From a bacterium (GTDB lineage: Bacteria; Vulcanimicrobiota; Xenobia; Xenobiales; JADMJV01): a DNA stretch of 46,774 nt. Each line of letters opens with the position of its first letter. Positions within the stretch are counted from its first letter, which is position 1. A model generated the notes under the pieces. That model saw only the letters and a list, made by a program, of their open reading frames with translations. It was not told the origin of the DNA and did not search any database. The position numbers and the translations under genes were made by a program. The stretch spans positions 1 through 46,774 of the forward strand of contig JASBRJ010000116.1 of the NCBI GenBank assembly GCA_030149525.1, written 5' to 3'. Below are positions 1 to 18,319 of this stretch, piece after piece.

Positions 1-262
1 CACGGCGGATTGAATGTGGCGTAAACGGCGAGTTGAACCTGGTGTACCCGGGCCGGGCGGCGTCACGCTAGATTGAATGTGGCGTAAACGGCAGGTTGAA
101 CCTGGCGTATTGAAGCCGGGCGGCGTCACGGCGGATTGAAAGTGGCGTAACCGGCAGGTTGAACCTGGCGTATTGAAGCCGGGCGGTGTCACGGCGGATT
201 GAAAGTGGCGTAAACGGCAGGTTGAACCTGGCGTATTGAGGCCGGGCGGCGTCACGGCGGAG
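1..262. repeat. Array A: tandem 63-bp intergenic repeat
   Basis: Just over four head-to-tail copies of a 63-bp unit. The landmark GTCAC begins at 62, 125, 188 and 251, exactly 63 bp apart, and a further copy is cut by the window start. Each unit carries GTCACGGCGG, GTGGCGTAAACGGC, GGTTGAACCTGGCGTATTGA and GCCGGGCGG blocks. Copies differ by only a few substitutions, so the array is recent or homogenised. There are no unique spacers, so it is not a CRISPR. The period is 21 codons, so spurious ORFs run through such arrays. No protein family is recognisable and I treat it as non-coding. The same unit recurs near 3.8 kb. Confidence 0.85.
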
Positions 263-325: not shown

Positions 326-483
326 AAATCTTAAACAAACTGTTCACATCGATCAGCCCATTTTTGCCTCCCGGAAATCTCCTGGCAGTATTCTATATTT
401 GAGATGATGAGTGAGTGAGACCCGACACTAACGGGTCCGGCCGGTTCTACCTGGTGAGAGAGGTGGGGCCGGCTGTTTTTTTT
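326..483 (+). ncRNA. 158-bp duplicated element with two hairpins and a T-tract, copy 1 (putative small RNA)
   Basis: This block recurs without indels at 3499-3656 with about five substitutions. Its right half holds hairpin 1, GACCCG (419-424) pairing with CGGGTC (432-437) across a 7-nt loop. Hairpin 2 follows: CCGGCC (437-442) with GGCCGG (467-472) plus an inner ACCT/AGGT stem. A run of eight T follows at 476-483, which is the form of a rho-independent terminator. A TATATT box near 394-399 could be a -10 for a short transcript of about 80 nt. No Rfam family is recognised. Alternatives are a plain terminator inside a duplicated segment or a mobile-element end. Confidence 0.5.
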
Positions 484-489
484 AGAGCG

Positions 490-795
490 GGGGCCTGGTC
501 GGCGATTCGGGGCTCGTGGCTCCCGCAACACTGCGAGGTGAATTCAGCAGTGTCGGGCTGGTGGCTCGACCAGGGCGACCGACTCAGTAACTCCGCGACG
601 GGTAATTCCGCAGTAACGGACTGGTGGAGCGACCTGGGGGTAGGAGTCGCCAATGTTGAGAGGGTGAATTCCACAGTACAGGGTCGACGCGCGAGTCAGC
701 AACTCCGCGACGGGAAGTTCCGCAGAGCCGGACTGGTGGATCGACCTGGTCGCCCGAGTCCGTAACGCCGCGACGGGAAGTTCCGCTAGCTCGGG
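490..795. repeat. Array B: degenerate 63-bp repeats
   Basis: About five diverged units. CTGGTGG recurs at 558, 621 and 733; the last interval is 112 bp, equal to 63 plus a unit shortened by 14 bp. Each unit carries CTCCGCGACGGG, AATTCCGCAG and TCGACCTGG-like blocks. It aligns loosely with array A (CACGGCGG..ATTG..GTAACGG) and is probably an older member of the same family. Several overlapping frames are open here on both strands because the unit length is a multiple of three. None has a recognisable domain or a good ribosome-binding site. Confidence 0.65.
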
Positions 796-1016
796 TTGAG
801 GGTTCGTCCGAGGCAGCCAAATCACCAGGGTCTAGCCGTGAATTCGCCCCTTCAAAGCTCAGAAAAACCTTGTAAATACTTATTTGGAAGCGAGGTCCTA
901 AGAGGCTCTTGTCGAATGATTTAGAGTTGACAAGATGGGGTTGTTTGAGCCTTCTCTTGTCGGCCCAAAGCGACAGAGAAGTCGTTCCTTATTCCGTTCC
1001 TTAGGAGCCTTTAAGT
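796..1016. other. Intergenic leader of the HNH gene
   Basis: No gene is seen. There is an inverted repeat CTTGTC (908-913) / GACAAG (929-934), and a TTGACA hexamer overlaps its right arm with no convincing -10 at the expected distance. A clear AGGAG lies at 1003-1007, nine bases before the HNH start codon. Confidence 0.4.
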
Positions 1017-2609
1017 ATGATCAGCGCCTCAGCCATCGACCCTCGACGATTTCGAATTGATACGCTTGTTGCTATGGGAGATAGAGTTCGTCATAACCTG
1101 GCCTTACGTGCCGTTGGAACTCTAACCGCTTGCAAACTGACCCTGGGTCGGTGTTTGCTGGCGATTGAAGAAACTAAGGATTTCAAGAAGTTCGGCTGTT
1201 CTTCGTCCACACATTATGCGGTGGCAAAGCTTGGGGTAAACAGGAAAGAGGCGAACGACTGTAAGCGAGTCGCACGGGAACTGCTGAGGTTGCCGGAACT
1301 TTCCTTGGCGGCAGAAGAGGGGCGGATTTCCTGGGGTAAGCTGAGAGAGATTGTTCGTAAAGCCAGTCCGGAAACGGAAGAATTTTGGTTGCAACTTGCT
1401 CAAAAATATAACGACCAGCAGATTCAGATGCTGGTCAGTAAGACTCCACCTGGAGCCGTTCCCGGAGAAGTGGATTTGGAGGACAACGGCTACAACTCGC
1501 TTCTTCGTTGCCCTTTGAGCCCTCAAGCCTATAGAATGCTGGAAGAGGCAACCCGCGCTTACTCGATCGCCCGGGGTAGACTTGTGACCAAGGCCGAGGT
1601 GATTGGTGATGCGCTGGTATCGCTTTTGGCAAAGGCGCCTTTGGACGAAAAGGCTCTGGCCAGGGTTCGGGAGGAGGCTGATAAGGATTTGCAGGCGGAG
1701 CGGGCGCGGCAGATTCCTCTAGTGGCTGAGGCTCGGGAGTTGGCCGCCGAAATTGGATTGATAGAGCGTGAGCCAGACGGGGAGTTGGACCCGGACCGGG
1801 TCGATTCGACCGAAGCCGCCCCTTGCAAGGGCAGTCTGCTCGGCACTAGGGAAGCCGGGCCCGCGACTGGTAGCAAAGACGCGACTCTGAGCTTCGCCGA
1901 CTCCGACGATTTGGACCCGGGCCGGATCGCCTCAACCGAAGCCAACCCTTGCAAGGGCAGTCTGCTCGGCGCAGGCAAAGCCGGGCCCGCGACCGGTGGC
2001 AAATCCGCGACTCTGAGCTTCGCCGACACCGACGATTTGGACCCGGGCAGGGCCAATAAAGCCCGCGCCGCCGAACTTCTCTCTCAAGCCTTGGGACTGG
2101 CCAATTTCGATCCAGATTTTCTCTCCGAGATGGACCCGGACCGGGTCCAATATGTTCGACTCAATAATCCCTGGTCGAGCACCCGAGTCCGCTTCAATAT
2201 AGACTCCCGACATACTACTAAATCCCAGAAAACAGAAATCCTTCGACGGGACTCCTGGTGTTGTAGCACCCCGGGGTGCCCGAATAAAATTTGGCTTCAC
2301 ATCCATCACCTGGAGAGCTTCGCCCATGGCGGCAAGACGGCACCCTATAACCTTCTTGGTCTCTGTTCCGCCTGCCACAAGAACACTCACGACGGTCTGC
2401 TCAAAATCGAACGACAATCAGATGGAACGCTATTGTTCCTGGACCAATACGGTCGACGCCTCGATCAGCAGGTGGATCTGGAACTTGCCTACTGGCTGGA
2501 CTTTGAAATTGGCTGGAGCGGTGGCGAGCAAGATTCGTACAAGGCCCGGTGCGGAATTGGCTGGTCAGTTTTCTCGAACAAGCTCACCGACTCTGGCGGA
2601 GTGGCATAA
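1017..2609 (+). CDS. HNH endonuclease family protein with internal 42-residue repeats
   Basis: 530 residues, ATG preceded by AGGAG. The C-terminal domain is a classic zinc-ribbon HNH nuclease. A CC...GC cysteine pair leads into HIHH at residues 428-431, then a conserved N, then CSAC from residue 450 and HKNTH. The N-terminal two thirds is helical and resembles the DUF222-type region found before HNH domains in multicopy bacterial proteins. Residues about 257-340 contain two near-identical 42-residue units (126 bp) beginning LDPGR/LDPDR and carrying CKGSLLG, followed by a third partial start. These linker units look like a tandem duplication or an in-frame repeat insertion. HNH proteins of this kind cut DNA; the biological target is unknown. 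The stop overlaps the next start (TAATG). Confidence 0.85.
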   Translation: MISASAIDPRRFRIDTLVAMGDRVRHNLALRAVGTLTACKLTLGRCLLAIEETKDFKKFGCSSSTHYAVAKLGVNRKEANDCKRVARELLRLPELSLAAEEGRISWGKLREIVRKASPETEEFWLQLAQKYNDQQIQMLVSKTPPGAVPGEVDLEDNGYNSLLRCPLSPQAYRMLEEATRAYSIARGRLVTKAEVIGDALVSLLAKAPLDEKALARVREEADKDLQAERARQIPLVAEARELAAEIGLIEREPDGELDPDRVDSTEAAPCKGSLLGTREAGPATGSKDATLSFADSDDLDPGRIASTEANPCKGSLLGAGKAGPATGGKSATLSFADTDDLDPGRANKARAAELLSQALGLANFDPDFLSEMDPDRVQYVRLNNPWSSTRVRFNIDSRHTTKSQKTEILRRDSWCCSTPGCPNKIWLHIHHLESFAHGGKTAPYNLLGLCSACHKNTHDGLLKIERQSDGTLLFLDQYGRRLDQQVDLELAYWLDFEIGWSGGEQDSYKARCGIGWSVFSNKLTDSGGVA

Positions 2610-2935
2610 TGCGCCACCCCGACTCCTCGGAGCAAGAAAAGACCAGACACATTCCTTTCTTAATCGCTGTCGTACTCATGCTGGCCATGATGCTGTATCA
2701 GCCCCGCTTCGAAGCCGCAGAAATTGAGACTGTCTACAGGGCGCCCTATCATCTCTTTCTCGTAAGCAGTCGACACTTCCCCGAGCTACCTTATTTCGGC
2801 CTCGCAGTATCGGGCCAAAAATTGCAGCTCTTGAGGCCGTTCCATCGTCCGACCGGCTTGACTTGGCTCGACGACGAAGCCCTCGACAGATTGGAAGCGA
2901 GCTATGATGACGAATTGAAGGCCCGAAAGAAATGA
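2609..2935 (+). CDS. Small single-pass membrane protein
   Basis: 108 residues, starting at the ATG that shares its A with the TAA of the HNH gene. An upstream in-frame start at 2549 would overlap the HNH gene by 61 bp, so I prefer 2609. One transmembrane helix lies at about residues 15-32 (IPFLIAVVLMLAMMLYQP), followed by a charged soluble tail ending DELKARKK. No family is recognised. Its stop overlaps the next ATG (ATGA), so the three genes from 1017 to 3366 are probably translationally coupled. Confidence 0.6.
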   Translation: MRHPDSSEQEKTRHIPFLIAVVLMLAMMLYQPRFEAAEIETVYRAPYHLFLVSSRHFPELPYFGLAVSGQKLQLLRPFHRPTGLTWLDDEALDRLEASYDDELKARKK

Positions 2936-3366
2936 AACAGGAGCAATCAGCCCAAGCTCTCATCCGGAGTTGGAAAAATCAAGGGTTGGTCATTTTGGAC
3001 GGAGCTTCCCAGGCGGAACTCAAGAAGCTGGAGCAGGCTTGCGGCGTTAGGCTGCCGGAAGACTTCAAAAATTACTTGAGTTGCGCAAACGGTATGCAGA
3101 TCGACGATTGGGACGACAATATGATTCGGTTCTGGCCCCTCCAAGAAATCAGGGCTCCAACAGGAATGATCCCGCCACTTGATTCATCACCCCCGACGAG
3201 TCTGATCTTTGCCGACTATCTGATAGACTCACACTTCTTTGCTCTGGAGTTTTCGGCGAACAGCGAGGTCCGAGTCATCAATCTGAGCAGCGAGCGCAAA
3301 GCCGTGATCGCCGGAAGTTTCTCGGAGTTCATAGACTTATGCTTAGCGAAAAACCTGCCCTTGTAG
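2932..3366 (+). CDS. SMI1/KNR4 family protein
   Basis: 144 residues. The family signature is visible: an N-terminal helix ending in a LEQACGVRLPEDFKNYLSCANG block (residues about 32-55), then a W/F-rich strand region (IRFWPLQEI) and a late FSEFIDLCL helix. SMI1/KNR4 proteins are commonly immunity proteins beside polymorphic toxins, including nucleases. Here the gene lies two genes downstream of an HNH nuclease in an overlapping cluster. That makes an immunity or modulator role plausible, but this is inference. The start ATG overlaps the preceding stop by four bases. Confidence 0.8.
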   Translation: MKQEQSAQALIRSWKNQGLVILDGASQAELKKLEQACGVRLPEDFKNYLSCANGMQIDDWDDNMIRFWPLQEIRAPTGMIPPLDSSPPTSLIFADYLIDSHFFALEFSANSEVRVINLSSERKAVIAGSFSEFIDLCLAKNLPL

Positions 3367-3498
3367 TGCGCACGCCGTCTTTTCCTAGCCATTTCTGTAA
3401 CGAGCCTGATGGCCTTCTCATTCCATCTAGCGATCCAAGCCTTACTCCTCGGGAAACGGTTCGGCCTCAAAATACGTCGTACCGAAAAAAACAAAACT

Positions 3499-3656
3499 AA
3501 ATCTTAAACAAACTGTTCACATCGATCAGCCCATTTTTGCCTCCCGGAAATCCCCAGGCAGTACTCTGTATTTGAGATGATGAGTGAGTGAGACTCGACA
3601 CTAACGGGTCCGGCCGGTTCTACCTGGTGAGAGAGGTGGGGCCGGCTGTTTTTTTT
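3499..3656 (+). ncRNA. 158-bp duplicated element, copy 2 (putative small RNA)
   Basis: Same length and order as 326-483. Hairpin 1 is GACTCG (3592-3597) with CGGGTC (3605-3610). The one change from copy 1 in this stem (C to T) keeps pairing through a G-U wobble. Hairpin 2 (3610-3615 with 3640-3645) and the eight-T tract (3649-3656) are unchanged. The other four substitutions lie at 3553-3570, outside the hairpins. Structure is therefore retained while flanking bases drift, although the numbers are small. It stands in the 656 bp between the SMI1 gene and the next plausible gene. Confidence 0.5.
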
Positions 3657-3741
3657 ACCCAGAACTTGTCAGGCTTAGTTTCGCAACTAGGAACCACACA
3701 AATTGGGCCGGACAATAATGCGACGGCTGAGCAGTACTTAT

Positions 3742-3925
3742 CGAGGCCGGGCGACGTCACGGCGGGTTGAACCTGGCGAATTCGGAGCCGGGGCGGCTTC
3801 ACGCCGGTTTGAAAGTGGCGTAAACGGCAAATTGAACCTGGCGTATTGAGGCCGGGCGGCGTCACGGCGGATTGAAAGTGGCGTAAACGGCAGGTTGAAC
3901 CTGGCGTATGGAGGCCGGGGGGCTT
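3742..3925. repeat. Array A': 63-bp repeats, second locus
   Basis: Roughly three units of the same 63-bp family as array A. The GTCAC-equivalent points are at 3756, 3798 and 3861. The first unit is shortened by 21 bp and the next interval is exactly 63 bp. It begins about 90 bp downstream of the second 158-bp element, so the element and the array occur together at both loci. A minus-strand ORF across it encodes a 21-residue periodic peptide, which I judge an artefact of the period. Confidence 0.8.
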
Positions 3926-4274
3926 GGCACCAACGTAACAAGACTGACAACCCGACGACCCCAGTCTGATGAGTCAACCAGGCAAGTCTTGTGGTGAACC
4001 GAACGGCATTTTAACCTAGACTTTGAGAGGCCTGAACAACGACGAGAAAGCCACCTGGTTGTTCAGCGTCTTCTTAGTTGCCTCGCCTCTTTTCCTGGCG
4101 AAGTGGCCCACATACGAGCTTGAGGCATCAATTGACCTGGTTTCAAGCCAAACCCAAGCCCTTTTCACAACCACAACCTGCGCTAACTCCTTGAGCCCGC
4201 AAGCCCTGCGAAAGCAAAAACAGCCACGAAGCAACTCCCCCCCCTGTTAGGTCAACCCTGAGCCACATATCTGC
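3926..4274. other. Intergenic region, no supported gene
   Basis: About 350 bp with no repeat and no convincing coding sequence. A TTG-initiated frame at 4023-4250 encodes a possible hydrophobic stretch near its start, but it has no ribosome-binding site and a low-complexity end. A C-run (CCCCCCC) lies near 4239-4245. Confidence 0.4.
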
Positions 4275-4666: not shown

Positions 4667-5854
4667 ATGAGGATTATTGCGCTGGTTTTGCTCCTTCTCT
4701 GTTTCACGGCAACTCCGCTCTGGGCCGAGTCGCTGGGAGATGCGGTCTCCGACTTTGGCTACAAATATTTCCGGAGCCTGAACACAGAGGAGGGAAACAC
4801 TGCTGTCAGCCCGCTGTCCATTCACGCAGCCTTTGCGATGCTGACTTTGGGGAGCAGTGGAAAGACCCGAGAAGAAGCTGAGGAGGTCCTCCGGGTAAAC
4901 GATGCGGAGATTCGTCAATACCAGGACTTTATGAAGAGGCTGAAACCGGAGAGCGATCCGCTTTCTCTGGCCTGCCGACTCTTCCCCGCCGAGAGCCTCA
5001 AACTCAGCACCGACTATCTTCAAAGTTCTAAAGAAAGCTTCGGCGCGGCCCCTCAAGCTTTGGATTACAGTGTTCCGGAGTCGGCACGCCAGACCATCAA
5101 CGAGTGGGTTTCCGACAACACCGGTAAGCTGATTGAAAAGCTGATCCCTCCCAACGGAATTAACAAGAGTACCGAGTTAGTTCTGGCCAACGCCCTCTAC
5201 TTCAAGGGTCGCTGGCAAGAGCCGTTCATAGAACCTATGACGAGGCCGGGGACTTTTCACTCCCCCTCGGGTGACCTTGAAGTCCCGATGATGTCGGGGG
5301 ACTTATCCTACGCCCTCTACCACATCGACAACAGCTTTCAAGCCGTGTCTCTGCCCTACGCGGAATCGAACCTGGCCATGGCGTTTGTCATGCCTTTGAC
5401 CACGGACGACTGGAGCGCAACCCAGCGTCGTCTGGGACCGGAGCTGATAACTCAACTAGAAAAGTCTTCCCGAGAGAACGGCGACTACGATTTCCCGCTC
5501 CCGAAAGTCAGAGTCACTCTCCCCAAGTTTAAGGTCGCCCAGGACAGTAAGCCGATACCACTGCTCCGCCTGTTGGGGCTCAATCGAATGCTCGGAGGCA
5601 GCCCCGAATTGGGCCGCCTGTCGGAAACACCAACGGGCTTTAGAGTTACGGAATGCTTTCATCAGGCCGTGGTGGAAGTGGACGAGAAGGGCACGGAGGC
5701 TGCCGCGGCGACGGCCATCACAATGGCCCGTTCCATGCCTTCGATCCTGGCCCAGGTCGTCATCAATCGCCCCTTCTTTTTTATCATTTATGATCGAGAA
5801 TCGTCCGCCCCACTCTTTATCGGTTCGGTGAGCAATCCCAAGCAAGAGAAATGA
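4667..5854 (+). CDS. Secreted serpin (serine protease inhibitor family)
   Basis: 395 residues. I start at the ATG that gives a Sec signal peptide (MRIIALVLLLLCFTATPLWA); an upstream in-frame start would add 44 residues without signal character. The serpin fold is clear: NTAVSPLSIHAAFAMLTLGS near the N-terminus, the LVLANALYFKGRW segment, and the C-terminal RPFFFIIYD...PLFIGSVSNP. The reactive-centre hinge EKGTEAAAATA is intact and carries small residues at P12-P9, as expected of an inhibitory serpin able to insert its loop. By counting from the hinge Glu (P17), P1 falls at Ser or the preceding Arg of ARSM. The target protease is unknown. The stop overlaps the next ATG. Confidence 0.92.
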   Translation: MRIIALVLLLLCFTATPLWAESLGDAVSDFGYKYFRSLNTEEGNTAVSPLSIHAAFAMLTLGSSGKTREEAEEVLRVNDAEIRQYQDFMKRLKPESDPLSLACRLFPAESLKLSTDYLQSSKESFGAAPQALDYSVPESARQTINEWVSDNTGKLIEKLIPPNGINKSTELVLANALYFKGRWQEPFIEPMTRPGTFHSPSGDLEVPMMSGDLSYALYHIDNSFQAVSLPYAESNLAMAFVMPLTTDDWSATQRRLGPELITQLEKSSRENGDYDFPLPKVRVTLPKFKVAQDSKPIPLLRLLGLNRMLGGSPELGRLSETPTGFRVTECFHQAVVEVDEKGTEAAAATAITMARSMPSILAQVVINRPFFFIIYDRESSAPLFIGSVSNPKQEK

Positions 5855-15178: not shown

Positions 15179-18100
15179 TTACCCCGCGAACGGGTTGGAG
15201 CCAAACCACCAGACGGCATCGGGATGCCAGGGCGGAACGATTCGTCCACTACGATAGCTGTCTCGGACTTTCTTCACATGCTTGACCGTGCGAACACCCA
15301 TGTCGTGAAGAGCATCGCCGGCATAAGAGGCAAGTTCACCGCCCGCATCGGCGATATTCTGGAGCGCCTCCTGGCCTGCGTCGCCGAGGTTTCGCAGAGA
15401 GTCTACAATCGCCTTGCCTCCCTCGGAGAGATTGGTCCCCAGGCGGTTCAGGACGTTCTTGGCGGCGTCACCGCCCTGGCGCACCAGATCCTGCACAGCG
15501 GCTAGAGCCTCTTTGGCTTTTTCCGGCTGAGCTTTCACGAAGTCGACCAGGCTATTGACGGCCTGTCTTCCCAGTTCGCCGCCCTTCTTGGCAATAGAGG
15601 TGATGCCGTCAACGGCCTGACTGCCGAGCTTTTGAAATGCCTCCACCGGGTTGTCTCGGAACTCGGAATAGGCGTTCTGGAGCATTTCAAGCCCCTGGGC
15701 ACCGGCGTTCTTCAAGCCTTCGATGGCGTGCCTGCCGATTTCCAGGCCTCTTTCGCCCATGTCTTTCAACCCTTTGAGCGCAGCTTTGCCAAGCTCCCCG
15801 CCCTTGGCAATGACATCGCCTATTCCGTCGCGGGCGATCTGACCCATGGTGTCCCAGTTTTCCGGACTGGCCATCCACTTGAGAGTCTCAAGGCCTTCCT
15901 TGCCCTGGCCTACCAACCAACTACCGGTTTGCTGAAGCTTTTCGAGAGCCTGCTCTCCTAACTGGCCGGCCATCTGAGCGGCACTACCCAGGGCGCCGAT
16001 AGCGCTCTGGCGGAACTGATCCAAACCTTGACCCATGGCTTGAGCGAAGTCGCCTAACTTTCCAGGGTCTCGGATGACCTCGGCGAGCATGTCGATGCCC
16101 CCGGCGGTCATTTTCATTCCGCCACCCACGGCGTCGGCTGCAAATACCCCCGTTTTCTCAGCCAAGGAGATACCAGCTTTGCCGGTCACCTTTCCGAGAT
16201 CCATCAACTTGTCTTCAGCGCCTTCCATACCGAACGTGGTAGCCAGAGCCAGCATTCCAGTCGGACCTCCCAAGACAGCCCCGCCCGCCACAACGGCGTT
16301 GAGAGTCTCAGAAGCCTTCCAGTTCTCCGGGTCGGCTCGAAACTGATCGATCTGGTGTCCGGTGTACAGGTCCAGACCGAGTTCCGCCGCACCCAGGGCC
16401 AGGTTGGCGGGTAGTCCTACGTTGCCTACTCCGAACAACTCGGCCACTCCGAGAGCCGTGTCGACTCCGTTGAGGCCCACTCCCATTCCCCCGAGAAACC
16501 GGATCTCCGGGGGCAAGCTGGAGTCGGCGGCGATCATTCCTGATTCCGCAGTGGCATAGGCCGACGCAGCGGTACCCAGTGCCGGGACCATTTTGCCAAC
16601 GCCCTTGAGAACTTTGCCGGCCGTTTTCGCGGTGATAGGCACACCCATTTTGGACATCATGCCGTCCACCGAGGAGAAGATTTTGCCAAGATTTTTAGCG
16701 GCTCCAGCAGGCAGGGACTCCAAAGCCAGGTCCATGTTGGTGAGGGCGCCCTTGAGCATGTCGCCGTCCAGATGCTGAGTGAACTTGAGCATACTGGCCG
16801 CATCTCCGGGATTCACGGCTTTAAGGACGCGACCGAGAGCCTCTTGACTCTCTTTAGGGAGCGTCTTAAGAGTTGCACCGAGAGCTTCCGTGATCGGCTT
16901 CCCATTCACTGTTTGCTTGAGTAGCTCAGTGGCCTGACCGGGTTTCATTTCAGAGAGCACAGTGGCCATGCTACCTCGGAGCTCTTGAGGAGTATTCTCC
17001 AGGGCCTGAAGCATCGCTCTGGCCTGCTCGGGAGACTCCGCCCCGGCCAACAAAGTGTCAACAGCCTTGCGGGCGGAAGGGTCTGTCACCAGGCCTTCAG
17101 CTCGCTTAGCCTCCTCGCCGTTCAGATGGCGTGTAGGTCCAGCCTTAGGCTTCTCATCGGCCTTAGGCTTCTCATCAGCCTTAGGCTTCTCATCGGCCTT
17201 GGGCTTTTCATCAGCCTTAGGCTTCTCGTCCGCCTTGGGCTTCTCGTCAGCCTTAGGAGCCTCTTCCGCCTTAGGCTTCTCATCAGCCTTAGGCTTCTCA
17301 TCGGCCTTAGGCGCCTCTTCCGCCTTAGGCTTTTCGTCCGCCTTGGGCGCCTCATCAGCCTTAGGCTTCTCATCCGCCTTAGGCTTCTCGTCGGCCTTAG
17401 GCTTTTCGTCCGCCTTGGGCTTCTCGTCAGCCTTAGGAGCCTCTTCAGCCTTAGGCTTCTCATCGGCCTTAGGCTTCTCATCAGCCTTTGGCTTCTCGTC
17501 AGCCTTAGGCTTCTCGTCAGCCTTAGGCTTCTGCCCATCTCCTCGAAGGATGTTATCGAGAATTTTGCTCCCTTTTTTGAACCATTCGGAGTTCTTCATG
17601 TCCGACAGGCCCTGGCGAAGCTTCTTTTTCAGCTCTTCTTTTTGTTTTTCCGTGAGTTTGTCGAGGGCGTTGTTTTGGTACTTTTCGATCTTGGCTTTAT
17701 CTTCATCCGACAGCCCGCCGTCCTCCGACGAGGCTCTAGCCCGGGGCTCGAACGGTTGGGGAGAGGAATCTGCAGACGATCGCTCGCTTTGGGCCGGAAC
17801 AGAGGCCCGGGAAGCGGCTGCAGAAGGCCCCCGACCTTCAGCGCCGGCAGAAGGTGTCACCTCACCAGAGGGAGAGCCCGCCGCCCCCTCGGTCCGGGAG
17901 ACAGAACTTCCCGTCTCAGCGTTGGATTGGGCTTTCGGCTCAGCCACTGTCGCCTGGTCCGTGCCAGCAGAAGAATAGGCCTCAGGCGGCTTAGCCGTCT
18001 CACTCGCTGCAACAGAGGAATCGGCCTGGGAGCCGAAACTGTCGGCCAACCCTTTCTTCAAGGCGCCGAACCCACCGGACTCGGAACTCTCACGTCGTCG

Positions 18101-18319
18101 ACTCTCACTTGAGCGAGAAAACCGGTCTACCGAGCCGACACCGCGAGTTTGAGAGCGACCAGACGAACGGTTTGCCCCAGACTTCGTCGCGCCGGCACCC
18201 GAGTTCGACCGTGCTCTGTTACGAGAGGCCCCACTGGAGGCGGAACTTCGGCGCTTCTGCCTACTGGAGCTACTCCCACTCGATCTTCTTCTGGTTCCAC
18301 CGCTAGGTCCGACTGACAT
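15179..18319 (-). CDS. Large low-complexity protein with Lys-Pro-Lys-Ala-Asp-Glu repeats
   Basis: 1046 residues, ATG preceded by GAGGAG at seven bases. Regions in order are: an Arg/Ser-rich basic N-terminus (about 1-75); a Ser/Ala/Glu-rich segment to about 200; a charged helical segment (about 205-262); some 22 hexapeptides KPKADE with KPKAEE/APKADE variants (about 264-392); a helical domain; a Gly/Ala-rich hydrophobic stretch (about 573-665); and a long set of amphipathic repeats of the AxxGLExLKxxG kind to about 1010. It ends WHPDAVWWFGSNPFAG. There is no signal peptide and no family is recognised. The architecture suggests a surface, envelope-spanning or exported structural protein, but that is inference. 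It is divergent from the MerR operon. Confidence 0.75.
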   Translation of the reverse strand: MSVGPSGGTRRRSSGSSSSRQKRRSSASSGASRNRARSNSGAGATKSGANRSSGRSQTRGVGSVDRFSRSSESRRRESSESGGFGALKKGLADSFGSQADSSVAASETAKPPEAYSSAGTDQATVAEPKAQSNAETGSSVSRTEGAAGSPSGEVTPSAGAEGRGPSAAASRASVPAQSERSSADSSPQPFEPRARASSEDGGLSDEDKAKIEKYQNNALDKLTEKQKEELKKKLRQGLSDMKNSEWFKKGSKILDNILRGDGQKPKADEKPKADEKPKADEKPKADEKPKAEEAPKADEKPKADEKPKADEKPKADEKPKADEAPKADEKPKAEEAPKADEKPKADEKPKAEEAPKADEKPKADEKPKADEKPKADEKPKADEKPKADEKPKAGPTRHLNGEEAKRAEGLVTDPSARKAVDTLLAGAESPEQARAMLQALENTPQELRGSMATVLSEMKPGQATELLKQTVNGKPITEALGATLKTLPKESQEALGRVLKAVNPGDAASMLKFTQHLDGDMLKGALTNMDLALESLPAGAAKNLGKIFSSVDGMMSKMGVPITAKTAGKVLKGVGKMVPALGTAASAYATAESGMIAADSSLPPEIRFLGGMGVGLNGVDTALGVAELFGVGNVGLPANLALGAAELGLDLYTGHQIDQFRADPENWKASETLNAVVAGGAVLGGPTGMLALATTFGMEGAEDKLMDLGKVTGKAGISLAEKTGVFAADAVGGGMKMTAGGIDMLAEVIRDPGKLGDFAQAMGQGLDQFRQSAIGALGSAAQMAGQLGEQALEKLQQTGSWLVGQGKEGLETLKWMASPENWDTMGQIARDGIGDVIAKGGELGKAALKGLKDMGERGLEIGRHAIEGLKNAGAQGLEMLQNAYSEFRDNPVEAFQKLGSQAVDGITSIAKKGGELGRQAVNSLVDFVKAQPEKAKEALAAVQDLVRQGGDAAKNVLNRLGTNLSEGGKAIVDSLRNLGDAGQEALQNIADAGGELASYAGDALHDMGVRTVKHVKKVRDSYRSGRIVPPWHPDAVWWFGSNPFAG
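17143..17532 (-). repeat. In-frame 18-bp tandem repeat encoding KPKADE
   Basis: About 22 copies of an 18-bp unit inside the 15179-18319 gene. Synonymous third-position variation between copies with a near-constant peptide indicates selection on the protein. The array keeps other frames open on the opposite strand, giving long false ORFs. Confidence 0.9.

Follow-up and report, generated by a model that had tools for sequence, protein, structure and literature searches.

A dispersed nine-copy family of predicted small-RNA genes behind an OmpR-type direct repeat in an Eremiobacterota genome

GcvB, a single-copy small RNA of about 200 nt with an internal seed, carries an unpaired, G-rich segment (R1) whose pairing partners are C/A-rich stretches located upstream of ribosome sites, and the seed of the LhrC RNAs is C-rich. 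LhrC is present in Listeria as several homologous copies that are switched on by the two-component system LisRK (PMC4132741). OmrA and OmrB of enterobacteria are duplicated Hfq-class sRNAs of 82 to 88 nt controlled by the OmpR response regulator; their 5' ends are near identical over the first 21 nt, as are their terminators, and the 5' end serves as the seed (PMC4211561, PMC12692685). The CiaR regulon of streptococci includes about five homologous csRNAs at separate loci, each ending in a terminator and preceded by the direct repeat TTTAAG-N5-TTTAAG with an 11-bp period (PMC3091779). For Eremiobacterota, a search of an open library returned only incidental mentions of small RNAs and no study of them.

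The window is the whole 46,774-nucleotide stretch analysed, contig 315 (C315) of an 8.27-Mb Eremiobacterota assembly in 398 contigs (97% complete, 4.5% contamination); a glutamine synthetase near by was closest to MAGs named Candidatus Eremiobacterota (77 to 79% identity). Two blocks of equal length, said in the preliminary description to differ by about five substitutions and no indels, were found to align over 158 nt (326-483 and 3499-3656) with no gaps and exactly 5 differences, namely (copy 1/copy 2) 380 T/C, 383 T/A, 391 T/C, 395 A/G, and 422 C/T. The similarity reached slightly upstream (311-484 versus 3484-3657, 94%). Two hairpins and a T8 tract are retained in both copies, and the only stem change is that at 422, where U-G replaces a C-G pair in hairpin 1, both as first described. 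The other four differences fall within the promoter, a short way before the predicted RNA begins.

The block is composed of two predicted parts, a promoter of about 75 bp (326-401) and an 82-nt RNA (402-483), which together would probably make up a complete small-RNA transcription unit. In copy 1, all parts of which are on the + strand, the promoter contains an upstream box, TTAAACAAACTGTTCACATC (331-350), made of two half-sites with an 11-bp period and presumed to be an activator site, and a −10 hexamer, TATTCT (389-394). The RNA begins with an unpaired putative seed (402-418), followed by hairpin 1 (419-424/432-437), a terminator hairpin (438-475), and T8 (476-483). Copy 2, also on the + strand, has an identical box (3504-3523), the hexamer TACTCT (3562-3567), and a predicted 82-nt RNA (3575-3656) with hairpin 1 at 3592-3597/3605-3610, the terminator hairpin at 3611-3648, and T8 at 3649-3656. 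Both terminators were reported by a terminator scan, each with 15 bp and an 8-nt loop. The fold z scores of the two RNAs were −5.1 (copy 1) and −3.9 (copy 2), with 0 of 200 shuffles equally stable, and those of the whole 158 nt including the promoter were weaker (−2.6 and −2.1).

The preliminary description knew of only two copies, which holds for the window but not for the genome. BLAST of the block against its own genome matched four places, and a search with the core pattern returned nine copies on five contigs and none with the reversed pattern: C315:402, C315:3575, C196:536, C101:14399 (−), C13:5920, C395:525, C395:1898, C395:2264, and C395:2815. The gene is accordingly multicopy in the sense of more than one highly similar sRNA gene per genome. 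A tenth core match, on C214, had three mismatches and neither hairpin nor U-run and was discarded; further matches to model R1 (C389, C76, C214, L134, L136, L143, L151, and L303) lacked the core and were either terminators or coding sequence. The copies on C315, C196, C101, and C13 are of a long form (82 to 97 nt) with an additional hairpin preceding the terminator, those on C395 are of a short form (about 46 nt), and three of the nine are nearly identical. The copy at C395:1898 has a −10 hexamer and is probably decayed, since the box is absent, the hairpin is mismatched, and the fold is weak (z, −1.3). Copy-number growth of the predicted sRNA is thereby seen in progress, the genome holding a long form, the minimal form of 46 nt, and one probably decaying copy. 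The block was identified as part of a dispersed gene family, a previously uncatalogued predicted small-RNA gene with a presumed regulatory role.

The seven copies outside the window lie in four unrelated neighborhoods, next to a GNAT acetyltransferase (C196), a Ser/Thr kinase and a small protein (C101), mnmA and a hybrid histidine kinase (C13), and a PilZ protein and a sugar-nucleotide epimerase (C395). These neighborhoods bear on the earlier proposal that the blocks are the RNA or the ends of a mobile or defense cassette. The two window copies do flank, in direct orientation, three + strand genes encoding an HNH endonuclease-domain protein of 530 aa (1017-2609; PF01844, 25 bits), a small predicted membrane protein of 108 aa from its ATG (2609-2935; no Pfam match), and an SMI1/KNR4 (SUKH) family protein (2932-3366; PF09346, 44.6 bits). 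However, the seven other copies lack these genes, about 20 HNH paralogues dispersed in the genome (including those on C227, C214, C57, C232, C105, C149, and C368) have no copy of the RNA on their contigs, and none was found on the other copy-bearing contigs C13, C101, C196, and C395. PADLOC matches were only weak, and no transposase was seen among the neighbors scanned. For the entire family the cassette reading is contradicted, its probability was judged close to negligible, and the HNH, membrane, and SMI1 genes are taken from these comparisons to be bystanders. Several of the HNH paralogues are truncated or at contig ends, and their middle part is variable; in the window protein this part contains a 126-bp tandem repeat (1782-2033). 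Directly downstream of the region lies a bacterial serpin (4667-5854; PF00079, 304 bits), and farther along, 21 tandem 18-bp units (17070-17620) encode PKADEK repeats in a 1,046-aa protein (15179-18319, − strand).

Eight of the nine copies have a common architecture of box, −10 hexamer, unpaired start, one or two hairpins, and U-run. The box is an 11-bp direct repeat, TTWACA-N5-TTYACA (for example, TTAACA-AACCG-TTTACA), at about −71 to −55, with the second half-site starting at −60 in the core-anchored alignment of eight copies. The −10 hexamer (TATTCT, TACTCT, TAATCT, TATATT, or TAAATT) is at −13/−12 in all nine copies, and in eight the box precedes it by 41 to 42 bp. OmpR-family regulators bind direct repeats of this type, and the fixed spacing is what would be expected of genes in an OmpR-family regulon. 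The pattern TTWACANNNNGTTYACAYC had 18 matches in six genomes from the family/order, against 0 when reversed. Within 1.43 Mb of the genome itself, half-site repeats with the 11-bp period numbered 16, versus 2 for 10 bp, 7 for 12 bp, and 5 for the reversed pattern. The box was frequently upstream of gene starts; the genes concerned included one for a pilin-like protein and others for small repetitive proteins. Across the family/order (loci L030-L051, e.g., L043:1501, L037:1501, and L047:1501), it was often found before small secreted, repetitive, or pilin-like genes, and some such promoters have three or four consecutive half-sites. In a relative, one locus (L036, G002:C42:12470) has a like box with a −10-like site and then an intergenic terminator behind it but no obvious gene, and may encode a further box-driven small RNA of unrelated sequence. 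The box also resembles Pho-type repeats, but no phosphate gene was recognized by eye among the boxed genes viewed, and assignment to the Pho regulon was rejected.

With a putative promoter of its own and a U-tailed terminator, each unit has the features of a free-standing gene. The same features might belong to a cis-acting leader or attenuator of a downstream gene, perhaps together with the mini-ORF ATGATGAGTGAGTGA (MMSE*), since the terminator structure follows a short ATG ORF and a same-strand gene begins within a few hundred bases in C13 and C196. However, no downstream gene is common to all copies, more than 500 bp separates the window terminators from the next same-strand gene, and the copies at C101 and C395:2815 each meet the 3' end of a convergent gene. 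The leader peptide itself was rejected because its stop is replaced by CGA in the C395 copies. A leader function was therefore considered highly improbable, and the units are probably independent RNA genes.

The predicted RNA starts with the conserved sequence AGAUGAUGAGUGAGYGA, of which the first 17 nt (long copies) or 15 nt (short copies) are unpaired; when a slightly longer stretch of C101 was folded, the RNA start could pair with bases past the U tail. The fold z scores ranged from −3.9 to −5.1 for the long form and from −2.7 to −4.0 for the three intact short copies. The arms of hairpin 1 occupy the same place in different sequences (GACCCG/CGGGTC, AACCCG/CGGGTT, GACTTC/GAAGTC, and GACCTC/GGGGTC). 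Covariation had been proposed as a check on the structure; because model R1 aligned the long forms poorly, each loop was replaced by AAAA and the count was restricted to the core and the six basal pairs. Two-sided changes were observed in four of the six basal pairs, 97% of the cells pair, and the covariation score was reached by 1 of 500 shuffles; sliding by one column reduced the pairing to 50 to 56%. The distinct rows number only six and are related to one another, and the arms came from folds of single sequences, so that the case for selection on the predicted structure of hairpin 1 is good but not overwhelming. The sequence of hairpin 2 differs among C315, C101, and C13, with 12 to 14 of 12 to 14 pairs formed in each long class. 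The compensatory changes, the fixed promoter geometry, the unpaired 5' end, and the seven further copies all support the original suggestion of a small, structured RNA that ends in a terminator of its own.

Tandem arrays of a 63-bp unit adjoin both window copies, at 1-256 (+), where the array may run off the contig end, and at 3800-3929 (+). The C196 copy has such an array upstream, and another stands between the copies C395:2264 and C395:2815 and ends at the box of C395:2815. Related arrays were found on 15 contigs, several at contig ends. Their units, of about 63 to 82 bp, contain TTGAANNTGGCGTWWACGSC and are intergenic (contigs including C16, C50, C92, C110, C152, C179, C196, C256, C308, and C395). 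Within the first array, positions 94-165 matched the Rfam model of the c-di-GMP-II riboswitch below threshold (23.8 bits versus a gathering score of 53.5), probably by chance. A link between the arrays, which stand beside four of the six sRNA sites, and the growth in copy number is plausible. The fuller reading, of a lineage-specific family whose copy number was raised by recombination via the flanking arrays and whose purine-rich 5' seed would regulate mRNAs without masking the Shine-Dalgarno sequence or AUG, is doubtful; it would concern a phylum whose RNA biology has hardly been studied. The adjacency to arrays could also suggest a short mobile or repeat element of the MITE/REP type that contains a terminator by chance and makes no functional RNA, as could the dispersal within one genome, the near identity of three copies, and the restriction to one lineage. 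However, the divergent copies keep the promoter spacing, the unpaired core, and the pairing while their hairpin sequences change, which is unexpected of a passive element. Moreover, the similarity stops at the box and the terminator, and the neighbors scanned include no transposase. A MITE/REP origin was thus deemed quite improbable, and the copies continue to be treated here as small-RNA genes. No terminal inverted repeats were found at 40 nt or longer, nor by eye at the block ends.

No convincing homologue was found by pattern search (up to 2 mismatches) in 148 other Eremiobacterota genomes, none of them of the same genus; two 2-mismatch matches (G062 and G106) were at the control level. The same was true of BLAST and covariance-model searches of the relatives. 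The position downstream of mnmA in relatives, an exact-match scan of 84,980 genomes (from which the source genome was possibly left out), and searches of viral contigs, plasmids, and phages yielded no homologue. Evidence of conservation therefore rests on the paralogues. The Rfam search suggested earlier gave no match at the gathering threshold in the window and only chance-level matches in the copy regions, and covariance models did not place the RNA in OmrA/OmrB or any other Rfam family.

We hypothesize that the copies are sibling trans-acting sRNAs, activated by an OmpR-family regulator and pairing via the 5' end in the manner of OmrA/OmrB, and we consider this reading probable. Binding of the response regulator to the box would switch the copies on together, and the RNA would be stabilized by its U-tailed terminator and by Hfq. 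Its 5' end would then pair with C/A/U-rich stretches in several mRNAs, altering translation or stability; extra copies would raise the dosage, and different hairpins may tune stability. A canonical Hfq is encoded in the genome (C144:800-994; PF17209, 88.9 bits) in a miaA-hfq-dapF context. The seed contains neither CAU nor CCUCC and therefore cannot simply mask the AUG or the Shine-Dalgarno sequence, which makes pairing in the 5' untranslated region or early codons likelier. Eight near-perfect 14-nt non-self complements of the seed were found, all inside genes or away from starts and none at a start codon, and duplex energies at 1,205 crudely predicted gene starts (17% of the genome) showed no excess over 60 shuffled seeds. 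One candidate target is the gene at C23 (L265:4357), whose early codons are complementary to the seed (−22.6 kcal/mol). The lack of a target in these searches, the multiple copies, and the conserved unpaired segment would also suit RNAs that bind and titrate a protein, as do the sponges CsrB/RsmZ. Yet each RNA has one such segment rather than repeated sites, the conserved core has no GGA motif, the 46-nt form is small for the role, and Hfq and the U-tails point to the pairing class. A sponge was accordingly judged unlikely, and regulation by pairing is preferred. The family is well delimited; it probably belongs to a two-component regulon, and its seed can be tested.

That these are RNA genes of a known kind, sibling sRNAs (PMC4211561), but of a new family is well supported by the sequence comparisons. 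As in OmrA/OmrB, sibling copies have a common 5' end and a terminator, and control would be by an OmpR-family regulator; unlike OmrA/OmrB, the copies are nine and mostly dispersed rather than two in tandem, the inner hairpin is variable, a 46-nt short form exists, and no sequence relation was seen (no Rfam match). The Omr seed pairs near the Shine-Dalgarno sequence and AUG, whereas the present seed cannot mask them directly. Like the csRNAs, the copies are homologous, terminator ended, and located at separate loci behind a direct repeat with an 11-bp period. However, the unpaired region of the csRNAs lies between two stem-loops and is complementary to the Shine-Dalgarno sequence and AUG, whereas here it is at the 5' end, and the CiaR repeat is 10 bp from the −10 hexamer, compared with about 41 bp for the box described here. 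The likeness to LhrC is in the several homologous copies and the presumed two-component control, but the sequence and seed differ (no Rfam match), the seed here being purine rich. The pairing logic proposed here is that of GcvB R1, although GcvB itself is longer and single copy and has its seed inside the RNA.
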